Below are positions 15,237 through 45,064 of a DNA stretch of 64,000 nucleotides, piece by piece. The stretch comes from Trichuris trichiura (taxonomy: Eukaryota; Nematoda; Enoplea; Trichinellida; Trichuridae), in the NCBI GenBank assembly GCA_037903355.1, contig JBAJFE010000022.1, forward strand, positions 54,387 to 118,386. The letters are read 5' to 3'. Position 1 is the stretch's first letter. Each line of letters starts with the position of its first letter. The translations under genes were made by a program, and so were the position numbers. The notes beneath the pieces were generated by a model. That model did no database searches. It saw only the letters and a program-made list of their open reading frames with translations, and had not been told where the DNA came from.

Positions 15237-15244
15237 CTCTTGTC

Positions 15245-20278: not shown

Positions 20279-20557
20279 AAATTTAAAAAGGAATAGACTA
20301 TAAAAAGAATAAACAAGCAGCCGACAGTCGCAGAAGAAATCTCCAACAGAGAACATTAAAATCCTCGGTTTAAATGACGGAAAACGATGCAAGAGAAATC
20401 TCCGCGCATACATTACACGGATATTGACCGCTGACGACGGGTCGCGACAGACCTGAAAGCTCTGGAAGTTCTTTATTCTCTTTTCCTTTTTTTGTGCTTA
20501 CCAACAGGACACAGGTACCGTAATAAAGACGCTGAAAATTTAAAATTAGCAAAAGCT
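20279..20557 (+). repeat. Penelope-like 3' pseudo-LTR of copy B
   Basis: This follows the stop of copy B directly. The part at 20370-20545 is the reverse complement of about 18600-18775, so copy B is framed by inverted pseudo-LTRs. It holds a hammerhead-like core at 20428-20471 and then gives way to the F repeat. Confidence 0.7.
20428..20471 (+). ncRNA. Hammerhead-ribozyme-like motif, 3' pseudo-LTR of copy B
   Basis: CTGACGA lies at 20431-20437, GAAA at 20455-20458, then AGC...GTT as helix III. Helix II here is weaker (GGGTC...GACCT) than in the 5' copy because CCC has become CCT. Layout is otherwise the same. Confidence 0.5.
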
Positions 20558-21189
20558 AAATTCGAAAATTCGGAACCAGCAACACCGGTGCCCGTCATCA
20601 GCGATAAGGGGGCCGCCCGGGGGGTCGGTCATGATGTTAGCAATCTGCTCCGTCCGACCGACCTTCTTATTCTGAATAACGCACCCGTTAGCAAGGAGAA
20701 AAAAGAAGAATAAAATTAATATGTGTGCGTGCGGGCACGGACAACAAAGAGGACAACGAGTGGCTGAGAAGAAAGCAGGTAGAGACTTGGAAAGAAGAGA
20801 GTTTAAAACCAGTTTCTTTAAAACAGACGGGTTTATCATTTATATGCTCGTTGCTTCTCACTGTTAGTGCTGCCGCCGTCGTGGAAGGTCAGTTTGGTGC
20901 TCGCCGCGAAGTCGAACTGACCAGGTTCGACTAAGGCCCGACAGGTCAGGATGGACCTGACGGCTGAGGGCCCCTCGCCATGGCCGGTCGGACAGAGCGG
21001 CTTGCTAACATAAAGACCAACCCGACGGGCGGCGCACTTAGCGCTGATGACGAGCACTGGTGTGGCCCGTAAGCTCCGCAGGTTAAACGTTTGGAAATAA
21101 AAGAACGAGTAGTTATGCCGCAGAAATTTTTTATTCTGAATAACGCACCCGTCAGGAAGGAGAAAAAAGAAGAATGAAATCAACTAAGC
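20558..21189 (-). repeat. F repeat, inverted copy in left arm
   Basis: This is the reverse complement of the layout at 36621-37260. It holds a hammerhead-like core on the plus strand (CTGATGA at 21044-21050, GTAA at 21069-21072 in place of GAAA). The right limit is the TA used by FB2, and the R repeat resumes on the other side of FB2. FB2 therefore inserted into a continuous F-R junction. Confidence 0.75.
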
Positions 21190-21649
21190 TACCGTATATT
21201 ACCACGCATAAGAACTCCCCCTGCGTTAGCGAAGGATGGTAATGATTGTCCCAGCAACAATGACGTTCATTGCTCAAGTCTAGATCAATTCTGATTTGTC
21301 AGTTTACCGTGAATGCTAGTCGCCCATTCAATTGAAACTGTCTTGCCCAAAGTGCAACGCAAAAACTGATCAGCTGCTGCTTAGCGCGCGTTGTAGAGCA
21401 TTGCGTGGGCTACGAAAAATGAATTGTGTTGAATAGGTTTATTGGACGTCTATTACAACTGTCGCATGTAAAACACGAATGAACAGATTGTAGAAGCGGA
21501 AAGAAAGGTTACATGACGCCGAAAACATTAAGTGCAGTGCCAAAACGGTAAAGCTAACAGTGCTCTTGGTCACTCTTTGGCATTTGGTCGTCCTCTGTGT
21601 CCTCTGAAAGGGCAGAAATGGAGCACTTTTGGAAGGACTTTATAACAGT

Positions 21650-21916
21650 TTACGTGTTTACTTTGCTACACGCCTTTATAACGAACTGGCACAGCAAGCT
21701 GAGCGATGGAGCTCGCATTTGTTCGCTGGCTGTGTAGGTCTTCTGCCCGTTCGTCATCCCTTCTTTCCACTCTTCTCGCACGTAGTCTTTAAAGGGCTTA
21801 TTAATGCAGACGTCCAGCGGCTGTATAGCTTTTCCTTTTTCACCGCTCACGTGCAGAATGCAATAAGTAAAACTGAAGAATTCTTTCGTTAAGGAAACTT
21901 GTTCTTCCTTAGTCAC
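21650..21916 (-). pseudogene. C-terminal transposase fragment, FB2 left arm
   Basis: It carries PLDVCINKPFKDYV and EEWKEGM, and is cut by a stop after KVNT (TAA near 21650) before the VIKSF block, which remains in sequence downstream. It is otherwise as in the other fold-back arms. Confidence 0.75.
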
Positions 21917-23045
21917 ATGGTTTTTTCAGCTGCTACTGACAGAGTGATGCAAAGTGACGCGCGATACGCGGAGACAAATTTAGACGAAAATGAGGAAAGC
22001 AAGTGTGTTCAAACTGTCCCAGTACACCACTGTTACGTTCGAACTAACGAAGCGCAGTAGCCCGCAGAAGCAACTTTAAACCCACTTTAAGTGCCAAAGC
22101 TTAGGTAGCACCGCATAATTTTTACAAGCACAAAGCGAACGGAGATGTAAACTGTTCAACAGTTCGGCGAAGGAACAACACATTTCATCCTCTTTGGTTA
22201 ATATCAGCTAACATGTCGCGTTACTCACGTCTGTCTGATGCAGCAAAAGATGGGAAATCACAGCTCTTTGAAGTTTGATGATAACACGGCGATGATATCT
22301 GTAAGCTCAACCGATGACGGCTGCACGCTCAGTCAGTGGGTGCTCCTGCACCTGTAAGTATGCGCAATGGCGGTTGAAGTTTCATGATAACGCTGCTTGA
22401 CCTATATCAATGATAATTGTTAGCTGAATCGATGACAACTGTGCGCCCGCTCAGAACCGAGCTTTTAGTCATCCTCGAAATAGGTCAAGCAGCGTTATCA
22501 TGAAACTTCAACAGCCATTGCGCATACTTACAGCTGCAGGAGCACCCACCGACTGAGCGTGCAGCCGTCGTCGATTGAGCTTACAGATATCATCGATAGA
22601 GGTCACGCCGTGTTATCATCAAACTTCAAGGAGATGTGATTTCCCATCCTTTGCTGCATCAGACGGACATGAGTAACGTGACATGTTAGCCGATAGTAAC
22701 CAAAGAGAACGAAACGTGTTGTTCTTTCGCCGACCTGTTGAACAGTTAACATCTCCGTTCGCTTTGTGCTGGTAAAAATTACGCGGTGCTACCTAAGCTT
22801 TGGCACTTAAAGTGGGATGAGGTTGCCTCGACTGACGACTGTGCTTCGTTAGTTCGTACGTAACGGTGGCGTAGTGGGACAGTTTGAACACACCTGCTTT
22901 CCTCATTTTCGTCTAAGTTTGTCTCCGCGTATCGCGCGTCGCTTTGTATCACCCTCTCACTAGCAACTGAAAAAACCATGTGACTAAGGAAGAATAAGTT
23001 TCCTTAGCGAAAGAATTTTTCAGTTTTATTTTTTGCATTCTGCAC

Positions 23046-23342
23046 GTGAGCAATGAAAAAGGAAAAGCTATACAGCCGGTGGACGTCTGCATTAATAAGC
23101 CCTTTAAAGACTACGTGCGAGAAGAGTGGAAAGAATGGATGGCGAACGGGCAGCAGACGTACACAGCCAGCGGACGAATGCGAGTTCCATCGCTCAGGTT
23201 GCTGTGCCAGTTCGTTATAAAGGCGTGGAGCAAAGTAAAAACGGAAACTGTTATAAAGTCTTTGAAAAAGTGCTCCATTTCTGCCCTGTTGGAGGACGCA
23301 GAGGACGACCAAATGCCAAACAGTGATCAAGACCACTGTTAG
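23046..23342 (+). pseudogene. C-terminal transposase fragment, FB2 right arm
   Basis: The 98-codon fragment has PVDVCINKPFKDYV (Pro-Val where Pro-Leu is usual), EEWKEWM, VIKSLKKCSIS and DQDHC. It reads outward to the right FB2 end, and an AATAAA follows at about 23453. Confidence 0.8.
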
Positions 23343-23707
23343 CTTTACCGTTTTGGCACTGCACTTAATGTTTTCGGCGACATGTATCCTTTCTTTCCGC
23401 TTCTACAATCTGTTCATTCGTGCTTTACATGCAACAGTTGTAATAGACGTCCAATAAACCTATTCAACACAATTCATTTCTCGTAGCCTACGCAATGCTC
23501 TACAACGCGCGCTGAGCAACAGCTGATCAGTTTTTGCGTTCCACTTTAGGCAAGACAGTTTCAATTGAATGGCCGATTAGCATTCACGGAAAACTGACCA
23601 ATCAGAGTTGATCTAGACTTGAACAATGAACGTCATCGTTGCTGGGCCAATCATTACCGTCCTTCGCTAGCGCAGGGGGGAGAGCTTATGCGTGGTAATA
23701 TATGGTA

Positions 23708-25695
23708 ATTATTTTCGTAAAACTTCGATTGAAGTATCACAGGTCTACTGTGACTTAGGAAGCCATAAACTGTTTTCTGATTTTGTTCCAATGTTCCATC
23801 AAGGCTGCGGACGCGTCAACGTTAGATCTGAAACAGTGCTTGCATAAGTAACTGAATTTCGTTCTCTCAACTACTGCTGACTAGCTGCTATTGCTGCCAC
23901 TGCGTTATCTGGACGATTCTCCCACCGCCAGTTGTTGGCTCGAGGTATTTTTCAAAGGGACGCAAGATTCGTGAATGTAGAAAAGCGAACTATCCTTTGT
24001 TGCGGAACCGCTATCACCGGCACTGGGGCTGAGCCAGTGGCCTGCTCACGAATTCAAAGTCTGCAGCGCTACTACATTAAGCACAGGGGTTTTCCATCTC
24101 GTCAGCAAACTCTTCTGACTTGGTCTTCAATTGATCGAATGGTTGTCGTATTCGTGCTGCTGCCTATATGTACAAAGGAGTCGCTGGAAGAAATAGACGT
24201 CTTCTCTTCCAAAAACACCGAGCACTTACAAAATGTACAGTGAGCATTAACTAAAGGTGAATCCTCCTTACGCAGCGTATGCAGTTTCAAAACACAGAGC
24301 GGGAATACGCAGACAAAGAATGTTCCCACAAACATCGGTAAGGCATGATTAACTTTGCATTGAATTGCGTAACAGTGGTTATGCCACGTATTGGTAGATG
24401 TAATCCCAAAACCTTCAAAGCAGGGATGGGGAATGTCTGGCCCGCGAAGCATTCCCTGCCAGCCGCTGAGGCTGCTGCAGTTGCATGCGGGATACAGTGA
24501 AATGTCACTATGGGAGATTATGTCTTTAAAATGAGGTAGACTTATTGTATGTGAAGCCTAGTAATAACGTAGGTCTTGACTAACAAGCAGGGAGCAGTAG
24601 GTCGGCTAGGAAGAGCGCCTTGTGTCGGCTCCATGTGGACAAACCGACGTCGTTAGTCTTCGGAGGCATGCAGTAAGGGGCGCTAATGTGCGCGTAGGTA
24701 GCGTGCACCACATGCCGCCTACCGACCCAAAGTACTATTCAAATCTCACCTTATCGCCTTGTTAGAGGGGCGACTTAAATGAACATACATGCAAAGAAAG
24801 CAGGTTATGTTGTTCGGTCGAGTAGTCTTCACCGCCTGAAAAAGGCAATACAAACGCCTGAACAGCCCACGGCAGCAAAAAGGTTAACCACCCCTGCTCT
24901 AAAATGTGTTTTCGATAAAGTAAAATGCTCCGTCTGTTACCCAAAACGGCCCGTATAAGCAAACGGAAGTGGTCGGCTTGAACATTTAGAAAACCGCTAA
25001 ACCGCAGAAGAAACAATTCGGTGGGTTCGAGACGTATAAATTTCGCTTCTGAAAAAATAAATACGATATTGCTGCGCAATAGAGAAAACAAGAAAGGGCA
25101 AACAAACAGAAACCGCGCCAAGAAGCAAATCAGTCGACATAGCTCACATCGCTAAGAAGTGTCACGATTTTGATGAATTAAAAAGCGAACGTTGTGAGTA
25201 TTGTGCCTCCCTTAAACTATCCTGTTGCCAACAGTTCTTTCTTGAACTGTATATTCTCTTTAATCCAGAACATCGTGCCCATAAAACGGAGACTGGCATC
25301 CGGGAAAGCATTCAGAAATTATTGCGGTAGCGTTAAATTACAAGGCACAACTATATTTCGCACTAAGATATATTTCTCCTTCCTGAGTATTCCTCAAACT
25401 GAAATGTTTCAAAGCGTAGACCAGTGAACGCAATATCATCCGTTCTCTTGCTACAAAATGTCAGTGAAGCTGTGGTTTATCTTCGAATATGCATCAACGA
25501 TAACAAAGAGAAAAACGGAATACAAATGTATTTACAGAGATCCACGTTAGAACTTCATTAAAACCCAGTATTTTCGGCTGTTTCATTTTTACCAAAATTC
25601 CATTATACAGTTGTGCCTCCGAGCTGACTACCTCCTTAAGTTGACTGAAATTTGACAAGTTGGTTGGTCCGCACATGGATTAGCGCAAGGACAGC
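23708..25695 (-). repeat. R repeat, inverted copy in left arm
   Basis: This runs in reverse from the FB2 edge to the hAT target duplication. It carries the hAT MITE at 24421-24896. Against its right-arm partner (52348-54335) it shows a few substitutions, e.g. near 24367 and 24380. Confidence 0.85.
24421..24896 (-). mobile_element. hAT-type MITE, inverted copy
   Basis: It starts CAGGGATGGGGAATG and ends, reverse-complemented, CAGGGGTGGTTAACC. Flanks CTTCAAAG and CTCTAAAA are a decayed 8 bp duplication. Confidence 0.75.
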
Positions 25696-25734
25696 CTCTA
25701 TACCAGTGATTCCCAACGTGGGCCCCAGGGACCC

Positions 25735-25860
25735 CTTGGGGGCCCTGGAACACTTGAAGGGGGCCCTGTGAAGGATTGGGGATTTAGGGGGTCCCTGGGA
25801 GCTTAGGGGGGCCCCAGGGGGTCCCTGGGAGCTTAGGGGGGCCCCAGGGGGTCCCTTGTA
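25735..25860. repeat. hAT subterminal tandem repeats
   Basis: A ~30 bp unit containing GGGGTCCCTGGGAGCTTAGG is repeated about twice with a partial third copy. hAT transposases often bind subterminal repeats, so these may be binding sites. An apparent proline-rich frame over them (25636-25971, minus) is an artefact of the repeat. Confidence 0.6.
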
Positions 25861-28241
25861 TTCGGTGCCGCAGGACGAGAGCGCGCAACCGTGCGTGTAC
25901 GTAGTTTGGCTATGGAAATTAGCGAGACTCGTGTATCGTACCCCCCGCTGAAGTTGACGCGGCAACATCAAGGGAGGTCAAGTGAAGGTTACGCCGTCAC
26001 AGTAACAATGGTTCGCATTCTTTAACCGTGCCGGCCGTCCTGTTAGCCTAAGCCTAAGACTGAACATGTGTTCTTCGATGTTATTGTGAGACGTTGGCGA
26101 GCTTGATACCTAAGCGTAGCGCGCTATGACAGTTAACGTAAATAAGCGTCCATTTGATGCTGCCGTCTCCGTTTCTGGCGGGGAAAAGATACACGAAATC
26201 CCATAGCTTGTTATCATTGCCCTGTCGTTTACCCTGATGTATCGGGCGAAAGTTTTTCTTACTATATTACGCTGCGTAGCGAATTCCAGCTACACTACAA
26301 AAAATGCCATTAGCGAAGGATAGCCTGACCGAAAGGCGAATTGTCCGATTTCTGTGCTTCGCCATCTGCTGCTGTGCCAAAGCGCAATTCAAAATGAATC
26401 TTTTTGATTTTTTTTCGCATTAGCGTACCACCCTGGCTCAAATCGGAGGGCTCGGAAAACTACAACCTGCGGGGGGCGATGACAGCTTCGCGGGGGCGGA
26501 CAAGCGCGCCTGGGGAGTAATGGCGGGGAAAATGCTCAGTAGACACTGATTATTCTCTCCTGTGCGTTGACGGTGGAAAGTAATAATAGCTCTGCGATCC
26601 TTCTTGTGTCTTGTTTCCTCAGTGCTGTAGTTCTCATCTATTCAGCTATCCTGTTATATCAGCTGTTAGGAAACTGCTTTGTCGCGACTACGGACCTCTC
26701 CTGAAGTTCGACGACTTTTTTAAAAATAGAAAGGTAAGTGTCTTGTAAGATTCTAGTTGAAACATGGCTCACGTTACCAGGAGATCAGCATTGCTTGAGC
26801 ATTAAAATAGATTCAGTCGCAACCATAGGAGTATCTGTAAGAATAATAAGCTCTGATCTGCTAGTTTAGTGAGTACAGGGGATCGTTGACTGACGGCGGT
26901 CCTTCTGACTGTCCCAATGCGTCCCATCCTTCTTTAATACGTCGGCGGTAGCTTAACCCCCGAGCCCTCATCAACGCGAAAGGCACATCACATCACAGTT
27001 TTGTACAGGTTACCTTTTACATGTCTGAAACACTTGCCGTGGCTCTTCACTTAACGGGGACATCTTATAAGCACTACTTCTCAATTTGATTTCTACATCT
27101 AGTGCAGATACCTAACGGGATTTCAAGAAGTCATATGCTCGCTACTACGGGTACTTAAACGACGAAGTGTGCCCATTTCATGACTATAGTGGACGTCTTT
27201 TTCTTGGCCGCTAACAGGCACGTCGGGCGCTATGTATTGTGCCTGAAGCTTATCGCCCGCGGGACTTCGGCAACGCCTAGTGCCGCTCCTTGTGATCATA
27301 TTTCCCAGAGAAACTAAGCCACAGGCAGTGCTTTCTAAGAAACGCGCTCCGTAAACGCCAGCAGGTTTGCGCGACGACTCTCACGGCGAGTCAGGCTTCA
27401 GGACAGCCGACAGGGTCCGTCGCGGTAGTCTTAACCTAAGTTATAGCGCTCGACGACGTCACCCATTTTGCTATGCTTGGGCTTTGAACTAGCATCAGCC
27501 TCCGGTTGTTCGTCAACTTTTTCGGGAAAGGATTAGTTTGCTTATGTTTAACCACGCCTATGTTTAAGTAGCGAATGACAAACCCACAAGTTCAGTAGCG
27601 CTCACCAGCAAAAAGGAGAATACACGCCCAGTTTGCTTTACAGGTGGGAGCATCTTACGACCGTCTGCCTTCCTTCCATACGCATGGCCTTGCGGTTCGC
27701 AAAAAGAGCAAGGACAATAGGCCTAGTACGGGAGGTGTAGATCTGTTTGAAGCAGTACTCAGTCAAACATTTGTATCCCCCACTCTTCACTGGTTTGATA
27801 TCTAAAAAGACAGCCAGTAGCGGAGAGTTCGTCGTTGAACTGCGGGCTTTGTTTGCCATCAGACTTTGGTGGGCGGAAGTATTTCCGAACTTGAAACCGT
27901 GCGAAATCTTGTCAGCCAGCCTACCTTCTCAAACATGGCACGACAACACCAGGGAGAGGGAGGATGTCCGCAAACCTGGGCAGAACATTTTATCGCGTGC
28001 TTTCCGTTGTCCACCGCGCGAGGACAAGAACGACCCTGTCGCAACCTCATGCTTCATAGACTTATTTTGAGCCTATTTGTCCGTCGCTACCATCAGAAAA
28101 GAGCGGGGTGATCACATGAAAGCGATTTGCTCCCGCTTCCAGGACCGACGTAGAGGGACAGTGCCGTCCGGTATGGAATCCCCTGTGTTCTTACTGCGGG
28201 AGCTTAGATGACGCCTGGCTAATTGATTTCTTAATACCACT

Positions 28242-30075
28242 GTGCTACTGTCTGGCTCTGAACTTGTTAGTAACGGATGTAAATTTCTACAGATGGCAGA
28301 AGCAAAAAAGAAATGTAGGCAATACAACGTCGAGTATCTAAGATACGGTTTTATACCGTCACCCTCGAATTCGCAGCAACCATTTTGCTTGATCTGGGAA
28401 AAGGCTTTTGCGAATGAACTGATGAAGCCCTCAAAATTAGTAAAACACCTGAAAACGATGCACGGTGACAAGGCCAATAAAAACCTTTCTTACTTTCAAT
28501 CTCTTCAAGATAACTTCCAAAAGCGACCTAAATTGCCAGGGATTTTTTCATCCGCATCAAGATGAAACACCGACGGATTGCGCGCGTCCTATAACATCTC
28601 CCTCTTAATCGCAAAATCTGGAAAGCCGCATGCCATCGGAGAAGAACTGATACTGCCGGCTGTTTCGGAAGTGCTGCGTACTGTGTTGCGCATTCCTGCA
28701 ACTGAAATAATTAAAAAGATTCCCTTAAGCAACAATACGGTGCAGCGACGTATTGATGAAATGAGCGCTGATGTGGAGAATACGCTCTGCAAGCTCTTGA
28801 GAACAGAGGAATTTTCTTTACAGGTGGATGAGTCGACGTAGCCACATAACGAAGCGCTGCTGCTGGCCTATGTTAGGTTCATCAAGGAAGGCAAGTTAGT
28901 TCAGGAGTTACTCTTCGCAAGAGAACTGCTGACTGACACTAGAGGAGAGTCAATATTTCGTACTGTAGAAGACTTTTTTAAAGAGAAGGAGATACCACTA
29001 ACGAACGTAATCGCTGTCGCGACGGATGGAGCCCCGTCAATGCTTGGACGCCATCGCGGGTTCCTTTCGTATCTAAAAGAAAAGGTAGCGGATTTGCTGG
29101 CCGTGCACTGCGTAATTCACCGGCAACATCTGGTGGCGAAGCGGCTCAGTGACAGACTGCACCGTTCGCTGCAGTACGTGATCACTGCGGTTAATAAAAT
29201 CAAAAGCAGTGCCTTGAGAGAGAGAGAGATTGTTCAGCCAACTGTGTGAAGAAAATGACGACGATTCTAACCGGCTCCTGCTTCACACAGAAGTACGCTG
29301 GCTTTCAAGGGGCGCCTGCTTGAGCCGCTTCTATGCCCTTTTTGACACCGTCATACAGTTTCTCAAAACTGAAGATACGGAATTACGCGACAACGTGGAG
29401 AAATCGAGAGCTGAAATAGCTTTTATGGCGGACCTCTACTTAAAGTTTAACAAGATGAATTTGCAGTTGCAAGGAGATCAACTGAATCTTATCAAGACGA
29501 AGACGGTTGTAAAGGCTTTCATTGACAAGCTTTCCATTTTCCGACAAAACCTGGGGCGCGGAGAGTACCGCCAGTTCCCTATCCTTGACGACCTCAAGAA
29601 GAATGGCGGCCTCCCTGACGATGTCATACGCTCCTTCTGTAACCATCTCAGCATGCTCCATGAGGACATGTGCGAAAGGTACAGAGATATTTTGTCCATG
29701 ACGATACTGGACTGGATTTTGGACCCGTTTACCTGCTTCGCCGAGGTTGAAGTGGCTTACCAGGAAGAGCTCATTGAGATGCAAGCCAACGAGGAGCTAA
29801 AGCTCAAGATGAAGAGCGGCTATACCAGTTTCTGGCTGCAGCAAGAAATCAGACAGCTGTATCCCAGGCTATGGAACGTAGCTAAGAAGTTCCTCATCCC
29901 TTTTCCGTCGTCCTATTTGGCTGAACGCGGATTTAGTGCGGTAACGGACCTTCTCGGAAAAAAAAGAAACCGCTTGCATATAGTCAGGCGAGGCGACTTG
30001 AGATTACTTCTGACGACTATCGAGCCGGACGTGGATAAATTATTAGCATTGCACCAGACCCAACCGTCGCACTAA
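28242..30075 (+). pseudogene. hAT transposase (ZBED-like), inactivated
   Basis: This is a DNA-binding and cutting enzyme of the hAT superfamily, related to the ZBED/SCAND3-type group. A BED-finger region near residues 45-70 shows FCLIWEKAF, then MKPSKLVKHLKTMH; the second zinc Cys of CxxC has become Trp. Two in-frame stops (TGA 28563-28565, TAG 28839-28841 after LQVDEST) and a frameshift in a GA run at 29216-29229 break it. The RNase H-like core includes NVIAVATDGAPSM and CVIHRQHL. The last 281 codons (29230-30075) hold the C-terminal dimerisation region YLAERGFSAVTDLLGKKRNR. All defects are shared with the right-arm copy. Confidence 0.88.
29216..29229 (+). repeat. GA microsatellite causing transposase frameshift
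   Basis: A run of GA repeats separates the two coding frames of the hAT transposase. It is identical in length in both arms. Confidence 0.6.
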
Positions 30076-30775
30076 GTGAGGTAAGATCAAGCGGCTGTCG
30101 TCATGCTCCGAGGAAATATTGAATTTAGATTCATTGTTGCGCAGCACTGAGAACAACATTGGAGCCTCACTTACAATTTGCGCTACCATTGCTAACAGCC
30201 CGAAAAATTAAGGAAGAGGAAACCCAATGCCGCGCTTGTACTCTGAATGCTCCCTGATCTGCAGTTAGACGGGTTAAGTCCAGTAATACGAAAAGAACGC
30301 CTTCAGTGCCAAATAAAGAATTTATGGCGTTAACGGCTTCGAATATCGCTAGGAGCATTCGCCGTATATGGCAGCTGGCTGGCTTCCTTACTAGCCATTT
30401 TGCTCTAGTGTAGAAAAGAAATTCAGCGTCGACTTCGCATCGTCAAGTTTTCCAGCCGCACACTCAACTTTCACAGCGCAAACCATGGGGTCCTACTTGC
30501 GGCTGACAAGATCCGCAGGTTAATAAGGTTTTTAAAGATGGCCCAGCTTAACTGTTTTTTCTTTGGCAAATACGGTAGGCAGCGAAGTCAATTCTACATT
30601 CTGCCGGCTCTTTCAAGTGCTGAACTACTTGTACAAATTGACAACAACCTAACCACAGTAGGCGCACCTGAGGATAACAGAAGCAGGAGAATTACGTTGG
30701 GGAGAATGACAGGGGGCCCCGGCAAGTTGAAGGTCGCGAAAGGGGGCCCTGGCTCAAAAATGTTCGGAAACACTG

Positions 30776-31741
30776 CTGCAAGCGATTCCTATTTGCCCAT
30801 AATGCTATTACGTTGTCTTGCTCAACCAAGGAGAAGAAAGATGTACATCGGTCGTTTGCCCAACAAGCGTGCTACTTGCGTTAACGGGAGCAGCAACTTA
30901 TCGATCAGGTTGTGACAATATCAATCTCGAAGAACCACAACTTGTCCCAATAGGAGTGCCTCCTCCAACAGAATTCAGGTAAACTTGGCGGTAGAACTAA
31001 GGCAACTCGGATTAGAAAGTCGACCAAGGAAGAGCATTAGGAAGGTTTCGCCTTCTATTGCACTTTACCTTTATACTTTGAGATTTCTATTAGCTATGTT
31101 TTTCAGCCGTTTCTAAGGATGCTCTGCGGAAATTTCTTCAAAAAGTTGCTAAAGCGAGTGGAAACAGCAGCCGTTGTTGCGAGGAGTTCCGGAGCTTGCT
31201 TAACAGGTCTGTTCTTCACCTTCTGTGAGCGCCTATCAATCAGATCCCCGCACAGTTTTCCTGTTTGATGATGAACCGTGCGAATCGCCCAGTGTTTTCT
31301 TAAATATTCACCACGACGCTCTGCGGAAGGCCATTTTTTTGTTCGCTGATATGAAAATACATGAACATTTTAAGGTAAGGTGACAATGCAACTTAAGTGC
31401 AGAAGTCCATTATTGCTCCATTCATGCTCCAACCACCCTACCTTACGCGCTTGAAGATTATGACGAGGAAGAGATCGTGCACGATCTTTTAGGAAAGAAG
31501 GGACTGCCTTTTTCCGATACTGTATATCGTTTTAGACGTCTGTTTTTTCTGTTAGTTGTGATTTGCGTAGGTGTCCATACGCCGTCCTTGCCCTTTGTCA
31601 GATCCAGACACTTTAGCCTCGTGTACAAGTCTTACGGCTATCTTAAGCGACGAAGAGGAATAACTCACTGCGTCACTGGCAGGCAGTTCCTGCTCGACGA
31701 ATTACTTTTCTTGGCAGCTGAAGCGTAGGAATCATCTGTAT
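30776..31741 (+). repeat. Partial unit starting at the inverted-repeat breakpoint
   Basis: This begins exactly where the hAT ends and corresponds to unit position 5671 onward. It carries the relict multi-exon gene (see 31261-31741). The 39591 palindrome insertion site is empty here (AAGTCCATTATT near 31403-31414). Confidence 0.8.
31261..31741 (+). pseudogene. Unrecognised relict gene, copy 2
   Basis: Here the exon block near 31261-31374 ends with HEHFK at a GTAAGG donor. After a ~51 bp intron it continues as LLGKKGLPFSDTVYRFRR, and a later frame keeps WQLKRRNHLY just before the MITE insertion at 31742. An 83-codon frame, 31477-31728, runs through the putative second intron. The match to copies at 6148 and 40310 is good. 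No family is recognised. Confidence 0.45.
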
Positions 31742-32674
31742 CAGGCATTCTCAACGGGGGCCTGGGGCACCCAAGAGGGGCCGAGAGGGTGTCAGGGGGG
31801 CTGAAATCGAAAAGCTTACAGGTGGTGGCGGGGTGGGGGGGGGGGGCAGGATGCCGTCCGGATGGCTGAAAAGCCTTATTGGAGCAAGCGTAGTTAGGTA
31901 GATCGGAAGGGTGAAAATTTGTACGAGTCCTCTGTAGAGGATTGGTTAACCCATGGCAGCATCCCTTTTTACAGGATTGGCATAAATTCTCACTTGGCTA
32001 GACGGAGTGCTTTCATTGTTAGTTTCGAAGAACCCCAAGTGCTCCTTTCAAATGATATGACGACTATGTATTCGCATTGTATCATTTTGAAAACGGGGTT
32101 TCTTGGTACGGGAACAAATCTTTTCATAATGAAGAAGTTTATTACGGATAATTCCCGTTTGTTCTGTATATGTGGAACACGTCCGGAGCTTTCAGGTCAT
32201 TCGATACCCGTCATCAGGTGTCTTAGGTTGTTGATATGATTCATGTCAGCGAGTGTCCTAATGTTTCTGAGGAGTTTAAAGTGTGCATTTTTAAAGTTTT
32301 CTGTTCGTTGGTTCTGGATTCAGAGGCAAAACATTAAAAATGCACACTTTAAAATCTTCAGAAACATTTGGGCACTCGCTGCCATGAATCACATCAACAA
32401 CCTAAGACCGCTCATGACGGGTCTCGAACGACCTAAAATCTCCGGATGTATTCTACATATGCAGAACAATTGGGAATTATCCGTGATAAACTTCTTCATT
32501 ATGAAAACGCATTGTATGGCTGCATTAACTGGATCCTAGGAGGATGCCGTTGAAAGATGATTCACTGCTATACCAAAAACGCAAAAATTATTTCGACCAA
32601 TAGGGAAAGGGGGTCCTGGCATATGAGGACACCTAGCAAGCTGGGCCCAGGGCAGAAAAGTTTGAGAATGGCTG
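31742..32674 (+). mobile_element. hAT-type non-autonomous element (933 bp), second family, copy 1
   Basis: The left end is CAGGCATTCTCAAC and the right end, reverse-complemented, is CAGCCATTCTCAAAC. Flanks ATCTGTAT and AACTGTAC are a decayed 8 bp duplication; the empty site in unit copy 1 reads ATCTGTAC at about 6636-6643. The interior carries a ~380 bp palindrome with hammerhead-like cores. The same insertion is present at 40637-41553, so it predates duplication of those two units. Confidence 0.8.
32128..32507. repeat. Palindrome with hammerhead-like cores inside the 31742 element
   Basis: The arms, about 32128-32300 and 32335-32507, are reverse complements. The left arm holds an intact core on the minus strand (32187-32217: CTGATGACGGG ... 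CTGAAAGC). The right arm has CTCATGA and TAAAATC and is decayed. Confidence 0.65.
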
Positions 32675-33250
32675 AACTGTACAGTTGGCTGGATTATATC
32701 AAGAATAATGCAGAAATGGAGCCATCTTTCGTTTCAAGTCGCTTCATATAGGGAGACGTGCATTTTATTTTTGTAACTCATTAATCAGATTGTAGCCCTT
32801 CAATGATTTAGGGTGGAAGCAATGTATTACGTGCTGCAACAGAAACGAAGATGGAAAGTGACCAACGCTGACTTGCATTGGTAAGAAGACGATTTCATGT
32901 ACTTCCCTTTGAGGACAACTTTTCTTTACCGGATCATAAAACCTCATGTGGCGGAATGTTACTTACAGAGAAAGTCTTGTTGGAACTTTAGCAAAGCTTC
33001 AGCTTTCAGGCGTTTCATCTTCACTCCTCTTCAGCGGCTGAACTACAAAAGTACAGTTGAATTTCCGTAAGTTGACTAGCCCCAAGAGGCGGAAGAAAAC
33101 TAGTCAGCATAAGGATGTTGTGGGTATAAGGGGGACCGACTGAACAGATTAGTATCTGTACGCGTGTTTTCTGCTGCACAGCGGCTATTTTATAGCGAGG
33201 TGCGTAAACATAACACTGCAGAGTCATATATACGCTTGCTGAAAAAGGTG
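32675..33250. repeat. Unit segment, non-coding
   Basis: This matches 41554-42110. I see no gene. The end near 33140-33240 overlaps the sequence of the inverted repeat at 7330-7440. Confidence 0.5.
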
Positions 33251-33405
33251 GTATTACTCAACGCAACGAAATTACCAACCTGCTATACCATACGGAGGAA
33301 TTTAACACATTAAACGGGAACTACTCCGTAATAAAACCTTTGCGTTATGAAAACATACGTTCCCGTACGAAGAAACTACGTTTTCAAACCAAAGCCTAAG
33401 CCTAA
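33251..33405 (+). repeat. Penelope-like 5' leader fragment
   Basis: GCGTTATGAAAACATACG and ACTACGTTTTCAAA match the copy A leader at 59440-59495. Only this short piece remains, replacing the Tigger relic expected here in the unit order. Confidence 0.5.
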
Positions 33406-34655
33406 ACCTAAACATGACGCGTGTTCGTTGCTGCTGTTGGGTTTTGCAGTTTTGACCGTGGCGCAAACGACAAGAAGCATAGCGCAAAGTAACGTTATTT
33501 AGCGATCACTGAACAAGCGAGCAATGAGTAACGCAAAAAGAGGAAAAGCATACGTACTGCTAACGCAGGGGCTCACCCTGACGATGGCGACGCGTCGATT
33601 TCGCTGCAGGCGCATCCGGCGGGTTCACTCGGGTGTACCTAATCAGGCAGAAGGTGTCAGTGCCTCCTTACGGTGCCTCCACTTGCCGATGGCAAGTTGT
33701 CACTAGATCCCGGGACAGACATAACGAAGAATGAGATTTCCCCTGTCTACCAAGGCACGCCTCAGCTCGGAAAGTTGACCTGCGATGTTTTTCACGAATT
33801 CCTACACGACGTCTCAGCTTGAACACCTGCAGGCCCCATTGTGTTTCCCGTTACTTCAATGCCTGCGCATCTGCTAAATTCCATGCTTTCAGTAAACCTG
33901 ACGATAACGTCCGTCTTGTTGCGCCGATAACAGCCATTCATTACGCCGTAGATTCGCAGATAACGCTTTGAAGTAGCCGGCTCCACTTTCCGCGCCCTCG
34001 AAACATACTAGACGCGTTGTTACTATATCCCGTAACAGACAACGCAGAATGAGATCTTTCCTGTCTACCATGGTACGCCCCAGCTGCGACAGTTGACCTG
34101 CGATGTTTTCAAGAATTGCTGGTCGAAATCTCAGCTTGAACACCTAAACAACCCTTTTGTTTCCCGGAACTTCAATGCATGCGCAGCTGCTTAATTCCAT
34201 GCATTCCACGTCGGTCCCGGTGTGCCGATAACAACCATTTACTACGATGTAGAGTCGCAGATTACGCGTTGAAGTACCCACCTCAGCTTCCGGTGGGGGA
34301 CAACACCACAAACCCCTCGATTCACCGTATTTCGTCCCACGGGAGAAAGCTGCCGACGCATAGGTGAGGGGTTACGTTATTGAGGAAACGCGCAAGTTGC
34401 ACCGGGATGCATGAGTACTGCACTATCAACGCGACTGAACCGGTTGTCAGTTCAGGAATCTCCAATGCACGTTAGCGAAAACTTTCGATGCGCTGAGTAA
34501 TAGCACACTGAGGCAATGATGGTTAACAGCTCCTAGCGATCGACAGAGCAATCTGAAGTGGTCAAGGTGAAATGGCCTAGAAGCTTTGAGGCCGTATACC
34601 ACGTCATGGCTGAAGCGCTCAACTTCCCAATTATGGAGATGGACAATGTATAGAA
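33406..34655. repeat. Merlin-derived non-coding segment, copy 2
   Basis: This aligns with 9690-10628. It includes a local duplication (about 33720-33960 against 34020-34300). It ends at GTATAGAA (34648-34655), the unoccupied equivalent of the hAT target. Confidence 0.6.
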
Positions 34656-36620
34656 GCTGTCCTTGCGCTAATCCAAGTGCGGACCAAGCAACTTGTCAAA
34701 TTTCAGTCAACTTAAGGAGGTAGTCAGCTCTTAGGTAAAACTGTATAATGGAATTTTGGTAAAAATGAAACAGCCGAAAATACTGGGTTTTAATGAAGTT
34801 CTAACGTGGCTTTCTGTAAATAAATTTGTATTCCGTTTTTCTCTTTGTTAAAGTTGATGCATATTCGAAGATAAAGCACAGCTTCATCTTCATTTTGAAG
34901 CAAGGGAACGGCTGATATTGCGTTCACTGGTCTATGCTTTGAAACATTTCAGTTTGAGCAATACTCAGGAAGCAGAAATATATCTTAGTGCGAAATATAA
35001 TTTTGCCGTGTAATTTCATGCTACCGCAATAACGTCTGAATGGTTTCCCGGATGCGAGCCCCCGTTTTATGGGCACGATGCTCAGAATTAAGGAAAATAT
35101 ACAGTTCAGGAAGGAACTGTTGGCAACAGGATAGTTTAAGGGAGGCACAATACTCACAACTTTCGCTTTTTAATTCATCAAAATCGTGACACTTTTTAGC
35201 GACGTGCACTATGTCGACTGATTGTCTTCTTGGCGTGGTTAATGTTTGTTTGCCTATTCTTGTTTTCTCTATTGCGCTGCAATATCGTATTTATTTGAAG
35301 CGAAATCTATACGTCTCTAACCTACCGAATTGTTTCCTCTGCGGTTTGGTGGTTTTCTAAATGTTCAAGCCGACCACTTCCGCTTTCCTATACGGGCCGT
35401 TTTGGGTAACAGACTGAGCATTTTACGTTATCGAAAACACACTTTAAAGCAGGGGTGGGTAAACGTTTTCCGGCCGTGGGCTGTTCAGACGTTTGTGTGG
35501 CCATTTTCAGGCCGTGAGGACTACTCGACTGAGCAACATAACCTCCTTTGTTTGCGTGTATGTTCATTTAAGTCGCCCCTACAACAATTCGATAAGGTGA
35601 GATAAGAATAATACTTTGGGTCGGTAGGCGGCATGTGGTGCACGCTACCTACGCGCACATTAGCGCCGCTTACTGCTTGCCTCCGAAGGCTGACGACGTC
35701 GGTTTGTCCACAGGGAGATGACAAAAGGCGCTCTTCCTAGCCGTCCTACTGCTCCCTGCTTGTTAGTCAAGATTTACGTTATTACTAGGCTTCAGATACA
35801 ATAAGTTTACCTCATTTTAAAAACATAGTCTCCCATAGTCACATTTCATTGAACCTCGCATGAAAGTGCAGCTGCCTTAGCGGCTGGCAGGGAATGCTTC
35901 GCGGGCCAGACATTCCCCATCCCTGCTTTGAATGTTTTGGGACTACATCTACCAATACGTGATTAAACCACTCTTAGATAACTCAATGCAAAGTTATTTA
36001 CGCGTTACCGATGTTTGGGGGAACATTCTTTGTTTGCGTATTCCCGCTCAGTGTTTTGAAACTGCATACGCTGGGTGAGGAGGATTCACCTTCAGTTAAT
36101 GCTCACTGTACATTTTGTAAGTGCTCGGTGTTTTTGGAATAGAAGACGTGCATTTCTTGCAGCGACTATTTTGTACATATAGCCAGCAGCACGAATACGA
36201 CAACCATTCGATCAATTGAAGACCAAATCAAAAGAGTTTGCTGATGAGATGGAAAACCCCTCTGCTTAATGTAGTGCGCTGTAGACTTTGAATTCGCGAG
36301 CAGGCCACTGGCTCAGCCCCAGTCCCGGTGACAGCGATTCCGCAACAAGGGATAGTTCGCTTTTCTGCATTCACAAGCCATGCGTCCCTTTGAGAAATAC
36401 GTCTAGCCAACAACTGGCGGTGGGAGAATCGTCCAGATAACGCAGTGGTAGCAATACCAGCCAGTCAGCAGAAGTTGAGGGAATGAAATTCAGTTACTTA
36501 TGCAAGCACTGTTTCAGATCTAGCGTGGACGCGTCCGCAGCCATGATGCAACATTGCATCAAAATATGAAAATCAGAAAACAGTTTATGTGAAACTTCAA
36601 TCGAATTTTTACACGAAAGT
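34656..36620 (+). repeat. R repeat, copy 3, uninterrupted junction with F
   Basis: A direct copy with the MITE at 35450-35925. It runs on without interruption into the F repeat near 36620, showing the ancestral order that FB1 and FB2 disrupt elsewhere. It lacks roughly 20 bp near 36590 present in other copies. Confidence 0.8.
35450..35925 (+). mobile_element. hAT-type MITE, copy 3 (best preserved duplication)
   Basis: Ends are CAGGGGTGGGTAAACG and, reverse-complemented, CAGGGATGGGGAATG. Flanks are CTTTAAAG and CTTTGAAT, an 8 bp duplication with two changes. Confidence 0.8.
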
Positions 36621-37260
36621 AATTAGCTTAGTTGATTTTATTCTTTTTTTCTCCTTGCTGACGGGTGCGTTATTCAGAAACAAAAATTTCTGCGGCGTGA
36701 CTACCCGTTCTTTTATTTCCAAGCGTTTAACCTGCGGAGCTTACGGGCCACCCCAGGTCTCGTCACCACCGCTAAGTGCGCCGCCCGTCAGGTTCGTCAT
36801 TATGTTCGCAAGCCGCTCTGTCCGACCCACCTTGGCGAGGGGCCCTCAGCCGTCAGGTCCATCCTGATCTGTCGGGCCTTAGTCCAGCCTCCTCAGTCAA
36901 ACATTGCGGCGAGCACCAAACTGACCTTCCACGACGGCGGCGGCACTAACAGTGAGAGGCAACGAGCATACAAATGATATACCCGTATGTTTTAAACAGA
37001 CTGGTTTTAAACTCTCTTCTTTCCAGGTCTCTACCTTCTTTCTTCTCAGCCACTCGTTGTCCTCTTTGTTGTCCGTGCGCGCACACACACGCATTAATTT
37101 TATTCTTCTTTTTTCTCCTTGCTAATGGCTGCGTTATTCAGAATAAAAAGGTCGGTCGAACAGAGCGGATTGCTTGCATCGTGCCGACCCGACGGACGGC
37201 CCACTTATTGCTGATGATGGGCACCGGTGTTGCTGGTTCTGAATTTTCGAATTTGGTTTT
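36621..37260 (+). repeat. F repeat, copy 3
   Basis: Two head segments, at 36640 and 37105, each start with the T-rich tract and GCGTTATTCAGAA box. The hammerhead-like core of the first (36738-36771, minus) is damaged (GGTGGTGACGAG), and the second (37207 onward, plus) keeps CTGATGATGGGC without a clear GAAA. Confidence 0.7.
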
Positions 37261-38715
37261 TGTTAATTTTAAATGTTTTAAAAGTGTGTACCTGATTATC
37301 ACTAAGGTACGGTGTCGCCGACCTACAGTAGGACTCGCCCCTGAATATCCTTTGCAATGTTAAGTTTTGAGCCCTGATTTTCCTATCTTTCATTTTTTTT
37401 AATTTCAAACGTTTCTGGTTTCCTTTTTGCTTATTCTGAATTTTATAACTTCGCTTTTGTAAATTTTAAGAGATTTCTGAATTTGCGACGGATTATCACA
37501 AGGTTCCACTATCCGATAGCTGTAGCAGGACCGCTACCTCACCATCCTTTTCTAACTTTAAAATTTCAGCCCCGATTTTTACTTTTTGATTTTAAAACGT
37601 TTTCAACTTAATTTTTGCTCGCTCTGAATACTCTAACTTCATGTTTGTTAATTTGTAAAATTTTGAAAATTTGTGACTGATTATCACTAAGCTACACTAT
37701 CCGAGACCTACACCAGGACCGGTAGCCGAATATCCCTCGCAATTTTGAGTTTTCAGCCCTGATTTTTTCATGGGGTTGCTTCCTTCTCATACAGATTTTG
37801 AGTCCCGTTGAAAACTTTTATTACTAAGTTGGCCGTAGCTTTCGGGTCGAAACGCGACCTGTCATCAGCGGTCCTAATTTGACGTATGAATAAAGTGCAG
37901 TATTGACGTACAAAGGGTAGTAGCTGTTTCAAAACAAGTGCTTTAAAGTGATCTTTATACTTTCGTTGTCTGTCGGCAGTTCGAGCAGGTGTATCCATTT
38001 AGTTGAGTGAGCAGCAATTCGAGCGGGTGAACTGCTCTTGTTCCCCAGCGTACGGTGTCCACATTGTTCTGTATTTTCTCTTACAATTTGCTCATCCATT
38101 CGTTGGTAAAGCACTTTTAAGTTTACCTACAGATACATCCAACAGGCGAAAACCGCAAATCAGAAGATCAACTGTAGTCATATACGAATTCTCAAAGCAA
38201 ATTAAGGAGTAGCAAAGAACTCTCGCCGGGTAACTTAGAATGTATATAGGAAACAAGAAGTTCACGGTTAAACGTGATTAAAAACACGTATCTGTAGCAG
38301 GATGAATATGTTGTTGAAATCGCATGCAAAGTTGACTTGTCCTGTTCTGGTTTTGAACTTCTTTGTATACAAACATTAATAAAGAATCCTCTCCTTCTCC
38401 TCTTGTATGTTTCAACGGTTTTATAGTAACGTTTCTTTGGAGAAAGATATGTTCCAGGCTAGCACGCAGACTGAGCGCGTAGCAAGAACAGTTTAATGAC
38501 AGAAGCAGCGCAGCAGAGCAAGCAGCTGATCTGAACGGGCACGTCAAAGAGGTTGAGGGAACAGTGCAGAAAAGAGAAACGCCGTTCTTATCTCCGCGTG
38601 TACTATGTAAATTCTTTGTATGCAGTGACTAATGACCCGAAAGTAGGTCGTTAACTTCCTGTGCCGTGAAGCACTCTTATTGACGCGTGTTCCGCGGCTA
38701 TTTTCTAACACCTTT
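37261..38715. repeat. Unit segment, AT-rich non-coding, copy 2
   Basis: This is the match to 4041-5460. A hammerhead-like core lies at 37837-37867. I see no gene. Confidence 0.5.
37837..37867 (-). ncRNA. Hammerhead-ribozyme-like core, unit copy 2
   Basis: Minus strand: CTGATGACAGGTCGCG, loop TTT, CGACCC, GAAAGC. The GGTCG/CGACC helix is intact and both boxes are canonical. Confidence 0.5.
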
Positions 38716-39578
38716 CCTTTTGGTTGGCTAGAATACGTACGCGTTTTAAAGCATTTCTTTGGTTTTGTCTCCCATCCTTTCGTTCCTAGAGAATGAAATC
38801 CGACATTGCTGGCACTGACTCAGTTTAAGTCTGTGCCAGCAAAGTCGGATTTATTCTCGGCAAGAACTATCGTCAACATATAATAGCTCTTGAGCTGGAT
38901 TGCTCAAGGTCGCCTGCGCTGAACACAACGTAGAACTGAATACGGAAGCAGTAAGCGATTCCTATTTGCGCATAATGTTATTACGTTGTATTGCTCAACC
39001 CAGGGGAATTAAGACGTACATCGGTCCTTTGCCCAACATGTCTGCTACTTGCGTTAACGGGAGGAGCAACTTATCGATCAGGTTGAAACAATATGAATCT
39101 TGAAGAACCACAACTTGTCCCAACAGGAGTGCCTCCTCGAACAGAATTTAGGTAAGCTTAGGAGTAGAATTAATGCAACTCGGTTTAGAAAGTCGACCAA
39201 GGGAGATCATTAGGAAAGTTTCGCCTTCTATATTGCATTTTAACTTTATACTTTGAGATTTTTCTTTGCTGTGTTTCTATGCCGTTTCTAAGGATGCTGT
39301 GCGGAAATTTCTTCAAAACGTTGCTAACTCTAGTGGAAACAGCAACCGCTGTTGCGAGGAATTCCGGGACTTGCTTAACAGGTCTGTTCTTCGCGTTCTG
39401 TGAGCGCCTATTAATCATCTCCCCAGCAGAGTTTACCTGTTTGATGATGAACCATGCGAATCGCCCAGTGTTTTCTTAAATATTAACCACGACGCTCTGC
39501 GTAATGCCATTTCTTTGTTCGCTGATATCAAAATAGATGAACATTTTAAGGTAAGGTGACAATGCAACTTAAGTGCAG
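38716..39578 (+). repeat. Unit segment with first half of relict gene, copy 3
   Basis: This corresponds to 5461-6296. A short perfect hairpin sits near 38794-38856 (a sequence containing GAATGAAATCCGACTTTGCT and its inverse, with small differences). The exon ending HEHFK / GTAAGG donor lies near 39430-39551. The palindromic element then interrupts the following intron. Confidence 0.5.
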
Positions 39579-39699
39579 AAGTCTATTATTTTCTTTTTTC
39601 TTTTTTCCTCTTCGTAACGGGTATTGTAAATTTTTATTCTGAATGTTTTCGCGGAATTTTGGAACCCGTTCTTCTAAAAGTTTATTTTATTCTAAAGAA

Positions 39700-39741
39700 A
39701 ACCTAACGGAGCTTTCGGGCTTCTCCGTCTCCCGTCATCAG
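39700..39741 (-). ncRNA. Hammerhead-ribozyme-like motif, left arm of palindromic element
   Basis: Minus strand: CTGATGACGGGAG ... CCCGAAAGC TCCGTTAG GTT T. Helix II GGG/CCC and helix III AGC/GTT are both possible and the base after GTT satisfies NUH. This is the most complete fold apart from the Penelope copy. Confidence 0.55.
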
Positions 39742-40188
39742 CGTAATTGTACCGCCAGTCGGGGCGGTCTTTAGGGTTGCCAGCCGCCCCATCCGAACAA
39801 CTTTGGCAGAGACCTATCGCCGTCAGCTCTCCCTTGAGCCGTCAGGTTTCGGTCCCGTCTAGTCAGTCAGACGGCGCAGCGAGCTTCCAACCGACCTCCC
39901 ACGACGGCGGCACGCGAACAAATGAGAGGCGGGAAAGCATGTTTAAAATCTGTTTGCTTGTTTAAAACAAAACGGGCAAACGTCGATTGAATGCTCGTTG
40001 GTTCTCATTTGTTCGCGTGCCGCCGTCGTGGGAGGTCGGTTGGAAGCTCGCTGCGCCGTCTGACTGATTACGCGGGACGGTAACCTGACGGCTCAAGGTA
40101 GAGCTGACGGCGGTAGGTCTCTGCCAAAGTAGGTCGGACGGGGCCACTTGCAACCATAAAGACCGACCCGACTGGCGGTACAATTACG

Positions 40189-40230
40189 CTGATGACGGGC
40201 CACGGAGAGGCCCGAAAGCTCCGTTAGGCT
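40189..40230 (+). ncRNA. Hammerhead-ribozyme-like motif, right arm of palindromic element
   Basis: CTGATGA at 40189-40195, helix II GGGCC/GGCCC with a 7 nt loop, GAAA at 40214-40217, then AGC...GCT as helix III. Relative to the left arm, helix II has gained pairs while keeping the core. Confidence 0.58.
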
Positions 40231-40308
40231 TTTTTTTAAATAAAATAAACTTTTAGATGAACGGGTTCCAAAATTCCGAGAACAAATTCAGAATACAAGT
40301 CTATTATT

Positions 40309-40636
40309 GTTCCATTCAGGCTCCAACCACCCTACCTTACGCGCTTGAAGATTATGATGAGGAACAGATCCTACACGGTCCTTTAGGAAACAACGGACTG
40401 CCGTTTTCCGTTACTGTATATCGTTTTAGACGTCTATTTTTTTCTGCTAGTTCTGATTTACTTAGGTGTCCATACGCCGTCCTTGCCCCTTGTCAGGTGC
40501 AGACAGATTAGCCTCGTGTAGAAGTCTTACGGGTAACTTAAGCGACGAAGAGGAGAAACTCACTGGGACACGTGTGGGCAGTTCCTCCTCGACGCATTCC
40601 GTTTCTTCGCACCTGAAGCGTAGGAATGATCTGTAT
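40309..40636 (+). pseudogene. Unrecognised relict gene, copy 3 (3' part)
   Basis: After the inserted palindrome the frame continues with APTTLPYALEDYDEEQILHG, GNNGLPFSVTVYRFRR and, further on, LSDEEEKLTGTR and SSHLKRRNDLYQ. The intron acceptor TTCAG is kept. It parallels 6320-6640 and 31430-31741. Confidence 0.42.
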
Positions 40637-41553
40637 CAGCCATTCTAAACGGGGCCTGCGGCCCCCAAGAGGGGCCGAGAGGGTGTCAGGGGGGCTGAGG
40701 TCGAAAATTTTTCAGAGGTGTTGGGCGGCCGGAAGTCGTCAAGGAGCGGGGTTTGACATGCCTTATTGGAACAAACGTAGTTTGGTAGATCGGAAGGGTG
40801 AAAATTTATGCCAGTCCTCTACAGAGGGTTGGTTAACCCTTAGCAGCATCTCTTTATAGAGGATTGGCATACATACTCACTTGACTCGACGGAGTGGTTT
40901 CATTGTGAGTTTCGAAGAACCGAAAGTGCTCTTTTCAGAGGATATGACGACTCTGCATTCGCATTGTATCATTTTGAAAACGGGGTTTCTTGCTACTGGA
41001 CTCTATGTTTTCATAATGAAGAAGTTTATTACGGATAATTTCCTGTTTGCTCTGTATATGTCCGGAGCTTTGAGGTCATTCGAGACCCTTCATCAGCGGT
41101 CTTAGGTTGTTGATATGATCCATGGCAGCGACTGCCCTAATGTTTCTGAGGACTTCAAAGCGTGCATTTTTAAAGTTTTTTGTTCGTTGGTTCAGGCACC
41201 TGAGGCAAAACTTTAAATATACACGCTTTAAAATCCTCAGAAACATTAGAGCACTCGCTGCCGTGAACAATATCAACAACCTAAGACCGCTGATGACGGG
41301 TCTCGAATGACCTGAAAGTTCCGGATGTATTCTACATATACAGAACAAACGGGAATTATCCGTGATAAACTTCTTCATTATGAAAACGCGTTGTATCATT
41401 GCATTAACTGGATCCTAGGAGGTTGCCGTTGAAAGCTGATTCACTGCTATAGAAAAAAACGCAAAAATTAATCGACCAATAGGAGAAGGGGGGCCTGGCA
41501 CAATAGGACACCTACGACGCTGGGCCTAGCGCAGAAAAGTTTGAGAATGGCTG
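40637..41553 (+). mobile_element. hAT-type non-autonomous element (917 bp), second family, copy 2
   Basis: Ends CAGCCATTCTAAAC and, reverse-complemented, CAGCCATTCTCAAAC; flanks ATCTGTAT / AACTGTAC as in copy 1. The internal palindrome at about 41020-41400 carries an intact hammerhead-like core in the right arm. Confidence 0.8.
41290..41330 (+). ncRNA. Hammerhead-ribozyme-like motif inside the second hAT-type element
   Basis: CTGATGA at 41290-41296, GGGTC...GACCT as helix II with loop TCGAAT, then GAAA at 41314-41317. The facing copy on the minus strand (41066-41096) has CAAA in place of GAAA. Confidence 0.5.
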
Positions 41554-44941: not shown

Positions 44942-45064
44942 ACGGTTTGTCGTTGTTCTATGTTTACTGTCACTAATTGCGTTTCTGTGATGAGGTCGAA
45001 GTCGCCTCGATCGTAGCCACCGTCTGCAGCGCGTCCTCCTGCCTGAGTGTCCGGAATGTACGCT

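Follow-up and report, generated by a model that had tools for sequence, protein, structure and literature searches.

The window, i.e. the whole 64,000-nucleotide stretch of Trichuris trichiura DNA analysed here, forms the terminal 64 kb of contig C30 (118386 bp) in a genome assembly of 72.7 Mb and 62 contigs. It is largely a tandem array with units of ~9 kb, the copies of which are roughly 85-92% alike, and related array units occupy long stretches of contigs C9, C28, C60 and C61, in steps of roughly 7-8 kb, reaching the contig ends on C9 and C28. The window also contains a large inverted repeat, whose features are listed in Table 1. Comparison of the window with itself aligned 47265-63061 with the reverse of 30777-14991 at 99.785% identity over 15.8 kb, 63069-63845 with 15055-14279 at 98.7%, and 63850-64000 with 12696-12546 at 99.3%; indels lie between these blocks, and the match runs up to the contig end. 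The sequence-only reading of this DNA had described an inverted repeat with 18-kb arms; the repeat is indeed there, but the end of its right arm could not be placed, as the window ends where the contig ends and the outer breakpoint lies beyond the data.

Table 1. Features of the inverted repeat and of the hAT elements at its hinge (positions in the window)
Feature	Position	Strand	Basis
Left arm, as far as its counterpart is visible	12546..30775	-	self-comparison, arm alignment
Right arm, cut by the contig end	47267..64000	+	self-comparison, contig end
Spacer of forward array units, from inner octamer to right hAT	30776..47266	+	self-alignments
Right-arm hAT, 5073 bp, original insertion	47267..52339	+	8-bp duplication GTATAGAG on each side; uninterrupted sites
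Target duplication GTATAGAG, left side of right hAT	47259..47266	+	
Target duplication GTATAGAG, right side of right hAT	52340..52347	+	
Left-arm hAT, inverted, 5072 bp; innermost ~504 bp unlike right hAT, remainder identical	25704..30775	-	
Outer octamer of left hAT, CTCTATAC, reverse complement of GTATAGAG	25696..25703	-	
Inner octamer CTGCAAGC, adjoining the 5' terminus of left hAT	30776..30783	+	nnnTAnnn in 33/38 array copies
Uninterrupted site of right-hAT insertion in a paralogous unit (GAATAGAG)	10621..10628	+	
Uninterrupted site of right-hAT insertion in a second unit (GTATAGAA)	34648..34655	+	
Intact counterpart of inner target in another unit (CTGTATGG)	5671..5678	+	
Intact counterpart of inner target in another unit (CAGTAAGC)	38949..38956	+	
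Inner edge, 6 substitutions and 1 indel between arms (counterpart 30273-30775)	47267..47770	+	
Core, 9 substitutions in 15.6 kb, zero in 47771-53660	47771..63384	+	
Outer edge, in a dispersed repeat, 9 substitutions in 460 bp, then ~1.58 kb found in the left arm only	63385..63844	+	

Several other elements are carried by the array. A 2.5-kb element that is ~90% alike to its own reverse complement lies in the array unit, once per arm (54336-56853 and 21190-23707), and pieces related to it are found at 12622-13663, 15237-16725 and 61318-62815. Each arm also contains a 519-codon open reading frame (ORF) with reverse transcriptase and GIY-YIG domains (18719-20278 and 57765-59324), which we take to be Penelope-like. 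Immediately ahead of the first array unit, aspartic protease-like and integrase-like frames at 10-1795 are perhaps the remnant of an LTR-type element. The best-named relatives of the reverse transcriptase and hAT frames of the window come from Trichuris suis, T. muris and T. trichiura, and Rfam and tRNA scans of the 64-kb window found nothing.

At the hinge, each arm begins with a hAT element. The top match of a 281-aa ORF at 29230-30075 is a T. muris HAT C-terminal dimerisation domain-containing protein (74%), other Trichuris proteins match it at up to 84%, and it has no match to a Pfam family at 0.001. Family copies were taken as the best 40 of 257 candidates, 2 of which lie in the window, and loci were available for 28 of the 38 outside it. 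In 27 of these 28 other copies (24 of 25 distinct octamers) the 5' end adjoins an octamer of the form nnnTAnnn, while TA occupies the centre of 5.4-5.7% of octamers at random positions. The 8-bp target consensus of TcBuster is given as nnnTAnnn in the available text of PMC3499496, and the family thus appears to be Buster-like, judged from these targets and the hAT transposase relative. As the sequence-only reading had stated, the right hAT has the same octamer, GTATAGAG, on both sides, and the left one is flanked by its complement, CTCTATAC, on the outer side and by CTGCAAGC on the inner side. The right copy represents the original insertion, its site being uninterrupted in three other C30 units, two of them checked base by base; a fourth unit, at C60:218423, was seen as a search match that starts at the same base. 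The unmatched octamers of the left hAT are of the kind expected after ectopic recombination.

The inner breakpoint had been placed at a hAT terminus, and CTGCAAGC does directly abut the end of the element. The sequence beyond it is not unrelated to the arms, as had been claimed: in the self-comparison it is the same tandem-array unit in a different phase. A search for the joint with up to 3 mismatches returned 40 places, of which those on C7 and C20 (3 mismatches each) were set aside as un-unit-like. Most array copies read GAAG-CTGTAAGC-GATTCC at this place; of the 38 copies left, 33 have TA at positions 4-5 of the octamer, and the other five, on C60 and C61, read CTGCAAGC, preceded by C. TA is also present in each of the four further units of the C30 type that span the joint (C30:47800, 60050 and 93328, and C60:213624, the last known from a search match alone). 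With TA in 33/38 array copies and 27/28 family copies, the inner octamer resembles a genuine hAT target, either altered by a later T-to-C change or representing a CA variant. That the element joins this octamer without an extra base is correct in that the join is exact to the terminus, although its position is ambiguous over a microhomology of 3 bp (GCT), CT being shared with the natural flank and G preceding the octamer in array copies of the same type. Microhomology of at least 3 bp is expected at 5.3-5.5% of all positions and at 6.4-7.6% of TA-centred ones, and end-joining was therefore kept among the candidates. An element end joined exactly to a target-like octamer is also what alternative transposition would leave. 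A joint that fell on the hAT end by chance was rejected, as the join is exact to the terminus, the octamer is target-like, and a hAT terminus forms the edge of another inverted repeat, on C1 (see below).

Asymmetric octamers are common in this family among the matches listed. The 5' and 3' octamers were paired from the best 100 of 145, 100 of 333 and 100 of 183 places, giving 99 5' and 97 3' entries; the left C30 hAT is absent from the octamer list (best 100 of 145 places). Among the matches listed, 11 pairs from the 22 distinct elements of 4.5-6.5 kb were matched, one was a near match and 10 were unmatched, so that asymmetry by itself does not point to a special event; elements of about 0.9 kb gave 17 matched and 7 unmatched pairs out of 24. 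With the near match excluded, unmatched octamers are not significantly more frequent in the long class than in the short one among the matches listed (10/21 versus 7/24, p = 0.23). Comparison of the remaining 43 3' entries with the 49 unpaired 5' entries yielded a single extra pair, C1:4445736 (5967 bp, unmatched), which stands outside the main counts and would bring the long class to 11/22 unmatched, near match again excluded (p = 0.23). A matched pair of 10.1 kb at C60:298608 falls in neither length class. Among random octamer pairs, 2.4% share at least 7 of their 8 bases. TA is central in both octamers in 5 of the 10 unmatched full-length copies among the matches listed.

Differences between the C30 arms are unevenly spread, amounting to 1.2% at the inner edge, 0.058% in the core and 2.0% at the outer edge, the two edges being similarly divergent (p = 0.44). 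Indels of 9 bp and 72 bp also lie in the core, and one further substitution is found at 63857. A core more alike than its edges is the pattern of a palindrome with arm-to-arm gene conversion, and a patchwork of haplotypes would look the same. Within the hAT itself the change is abrupt: the innermost 504 bp contain 6 substitutions and 1 indel, and the other 4569 bp none (Fisher's exact p = 9e-7 for the substitutions), a step that gene conversion would produce just as a chimeric element would. Polarised with the 28 other copies, four of the seven differing sites of the inner edge changed on the left lineage and three on the right, which indicates that two aged copies were involved; the changes are not all private, the one at 47332 being found in 3 other copies and the one at 47640 in 2 (one per lineage). 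Four derived bases are common to the left and right 5' ends and absent in the 28 other copies examined. When the outer edge was compared with four dispersed copies of the repeat in which it lies, 4 changes were private to the right arm and 3 to the left, 2 were undecided, and 4 derived bases were common to both arms. C/G transversions account for 8 of the 24 arm-to-arm substitutions between 47282 and 63764, which is seemingly many.

Two simple accounts of these differences were rejected. The 5' end of the left hAT does not come from a distant family member, since its distance to the right copy (6/513) is smaller than that to any of the 28 others (10-22) and since the four shared derived bases also contradict such a source. 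Nor can a chimeric read have folded the right arm back unchanged, given the private changes in both arms. The variant hAT end occurs at 2 places in the 72.7 Mb, with no third exact copy, and no second source copy for a chimeric left hAT was found.

A second inverted repeat lies at C1:7802965-7829661 (loci L028, L043, L027 and L044), with arms of at least 11.26 kb and a spacer of 4.18 kb. Its hinge consists of two family copies in opposite orientation with the same 5' octamer, and its inner edges are the 3' terminus of the hAT, beyond which the alignment extends 5 bp because the octamers agree at 4 of 5 bases. The octamer outside is TGCTACAC on both copies; those inside are AGCTATAC, identical to the outer octamer at 6 of 8 bases, and ATCTAGAA. 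The pair shows 28 differences, all of them in hAT positions 2484-5057 (the inner 2.6 kb, 1.1%), whereas hAT positions 1-2483 and 1.5 kb of flank are identical between the arms; over the next 4.7 kb the bit score against the other arm equals that against itself, so that at least 8.68 kb in total is without a difference. Polarised by the C30 hAT alone, the inner differences comprise 23 changes in one element and 5 in its partner (binomial p = 0.0009). Contig C1 (7841923 bp) ends 23.5 kb past the inner end of the right-hand hAT.

Arrangements of another kind occur once on C36 and twice on C24 (loci L020, L017 and L021). In each of the three, the 5' end of a hAT abuts ACGTAAGT within a hAT of opposite orientation, near position 3336, and their 5' flanks are 98.1-98.8% alike. 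Among the matches listed, CCTTAACA lies beyond each of the two outer 3' ends on C36 and at C24:1114393-1121236, and the outer octamers at C24:1188403-1195185 are unequal (CTCTGTAC and CCTTAACA).

The reading we favour, with a probability of about 0.38, is that homologous exchange between two inverted sister hATs gave rise to the chimeric left hAT and the inverted duplication. It would have started from two closely related Buster-like hATs in opposite orientation, 16.5 kb apart in the array: hAT1 at GTATAGAG, which corresponds to the right copy, and hAT2, presumably once a complete element, at CTGYAAGC. Homologous exchange inside the element, at least about 500 bases from the 5' end, whether unequal, between chromatids or homologues, or by break-induced copying, would have joined the spacer and the 5' end of hAT2 to the 3' part of another copy of hAT1 with its flank. 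The product would be reversed flank, chimeric hAT, spacer, hAT1 and flank, in that order. CTGCAAGC would be the ordinary insertion site of hAT2, and what the sequence-only reading called an asymmetric target duplication would be what a recombinant element typically shows. For telling ectopic recombination from the insertion of a hybrid element, a published criterion is the presence of chimeric copies whose duplications have been exchanged (PMC2775673, available text). The exchange fits both repeats, as it predicts that one copy supplied the inner part and the other the outer part along with the flank. For it speak the divergence step in the left hAT, the canonical inner octamer and the C1 repeat with its like step, which, together with the junction, are present in the assembly, as well as the frequency of unmatched octamers in the family (10/22 distinct long copies among the matches listed). 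One point against it is that the four shared derived bases, absent in 28 other copies, require hAT2 to have been a sister of hAT1 from the same neighbourhood. Against the exchange also stands the outer edge, which is as divergent as the inner one and has private changes in both arms: a recent single exchange should have left it nearly identical, unless the flanks came from different haplotypes. The five array copies that read CTGCAAGC without TA also count against it, so the target may be non-canonical, and neither an unrearranged hAT2 nor a partner junction was found.

The exchange would have taken place in the animal, but the same geometry would arise if real inverted sister hATs and their spacer had been misassembled, i.e. 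if the assembler had switched inside the element and put a reversed copy of the flank, perhaps misattached from the other haplotype, on the wrong side. We regard such a fold-back as somewhat unlikely, though it is a serious alternative because of the proximity of contig ends and the 8.7 kb free of differences in C1. Both repeats lie near contig ends, C30 ending within the right arm, 16.7 kb after the start of the right hAT, and C1 as close to its hinge as given above; moreover, the long identity in C1 adjoins an inner half of the hAT that differs by 1.1%. Genuine long inverted repeats break assemblies too, however, and the C30 arms outside the inner edge differ by 19 substitutions and by indels of 9 bp, 72 bp and ~1.58 kb. 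With private changes in both arms, the right arm is no simple copy of the left, and a mixing of haplotypes would be required. The joint might instead have formed by microhomology-mediated joining or a replication template switch at GCT, or a later adjacent deletion might have trimmed an older inverted repeat to the hAT end. The 3 bp at the joint agree with the former and an adjacent deletion leaves the same joint, but either event would have had to coincide by chance with both the terminus of a hAT and an octamer resembling a target, and with a hAT terminus once more in C1; we consider this origin very improbable.

The sequence-only reading had proposed a hAT-driven alternative transposition or a break at the hAT end. 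The breakpoint at the terminus and the canonical target hold, but transposition itself as the cause is not supported: the innermost 504 bp of the hAT differ while the remaining 4569 bp are identical, and C1 repeats the pattern at the other end of the element. A recent one-step event is disfavoured, since it predicts identity up to the hinge and the hinge-side part is divergent in both repeats. Alternative transposition, one-ended or with a hybrid element, is tenable only if the event is old and the arms were later homogenised against each other; a flank-attached hAT 5' end would have joined CTGYAAGC on the sister chromatid or homologue and later conversion would have homogenised the core. We think this unlikely, although an older repeat with a converted core fits the 2% at the outer edge, so that an origin by aberrant transposition may still stand. 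A join exact to the terminus at an octamer of canonical form in most array copies, edges similarly divergent around a far more uniform core, and four derived bases common to both 5' ends, as if from one element, are in its favour; so are the 5' ends joined to ACGTAAGT in inverted hATs on C36 and C24 and the equal outer 3' octamers on C36 and at C24:1114393-1121236 (among the matches listed). Sister-chromatid transposition of Ac reportedly yields inverted duplications (PMC3744419, available text). On the other side, conversion must have left the inner edge untouched in C30 and C1 alike, the inner differences of C1 are lopsided, the outer octamers at C24:1188403-1195185 differ (among the matches listed), and we reason that the sister-chromatid products we derive would keep the right hAT intact only if a third element or a homologue took part. 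The partner junction that had been predicted is absent from C30 and the known array stretches among 57 places with up to 2 mismatches to CTGYAAGC followed by CAGTGNTTCC, and from the matches listed of 206 places in a further search; incompleteness of the assembly may account for the miss. Trichuris chromosomes may be monocentric (PMC9071541, available text), in which case a simple U-type product would call for one more outer breakpoint, beyond the data. A broader version, which we hold to be distinctly doubtful, is that this hAT family repeatedly makes inverted duplications, with a flank-attached end joined to a canonical 8-bp target and the arms kept alike by conversion that stops short of the hinge, a natural Ac-like alternative transposition in an animal; its cases would be C30 at the 5' end, C1 at the 3' end, and C36/C24 inside the sister element.

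The arms of human Y palindromes are reportedly kept alike by arm-to-arm gene conversion. A near-identical core between arms is likewise described for Caenorhabditis inverted repeats with arm-to-arm gene conversion (PMC1803023, in part); here, unlike in those repeats and the Y palindromes, divergent edges flank the core, for which a recent origin is possible. Unmatched target duplications and elements of mixed history are likewise found at the breakpoints of the Galileo inversion 2z3 in Drosophila buzzatii, in the portion of PMC2775673 available, but 2z3 is a simple inversion with two chimeric copies of a P-superfamily element, produced by ectopic recombination, whereas in the present inverted duplication one hAT is intact and the other apparently chimeric, and there is no unrearranged chromosome for comparison. 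Sister-chromatid or reversed-ends transposition of maize Ac/Ds shares the hAT element, the 8-bp target, the breakpoint at an element end and the inverted duplication (PMC3744419, same text); the differences are the divergence step in the element, the lack of a partner junction and the lack of a new 8-bp duplication at both joints. Animal hAT-derived elements have also been found at inversion breakpoints in Atlantic cod, where ectopic recombination was held responsible (PMC12368964, in excerpt), but those are large chromosomal inversions with tandem MITEs, and here a kilobase-scale inverted duplication is hinged on full-length hATs. The supposition that no animal example had been described thus holds for the exact arrangement, of which we found none in the literature searched, and not for animal hATs at breakpoints in general, the cod being a case (PMC12368964, excerpt). 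The literature search, which extended to few subscription journals, found no animal inverted duplication with a hAT end as its hinge.

Long inverted repeats destabilise chromosomes and break assemblies. If the assembler made the exchange, inverted sister transposons near contig ends can yield false inverted duplications with plausible transposition signatures. Where inverted repeats originate from DNA transposons, it is rarely decidable afterwards whether copies recombined or transposition went astray; two repeats in one genome, at opposite ends of the same hAT family and each with a step inside the element, make this question testable.
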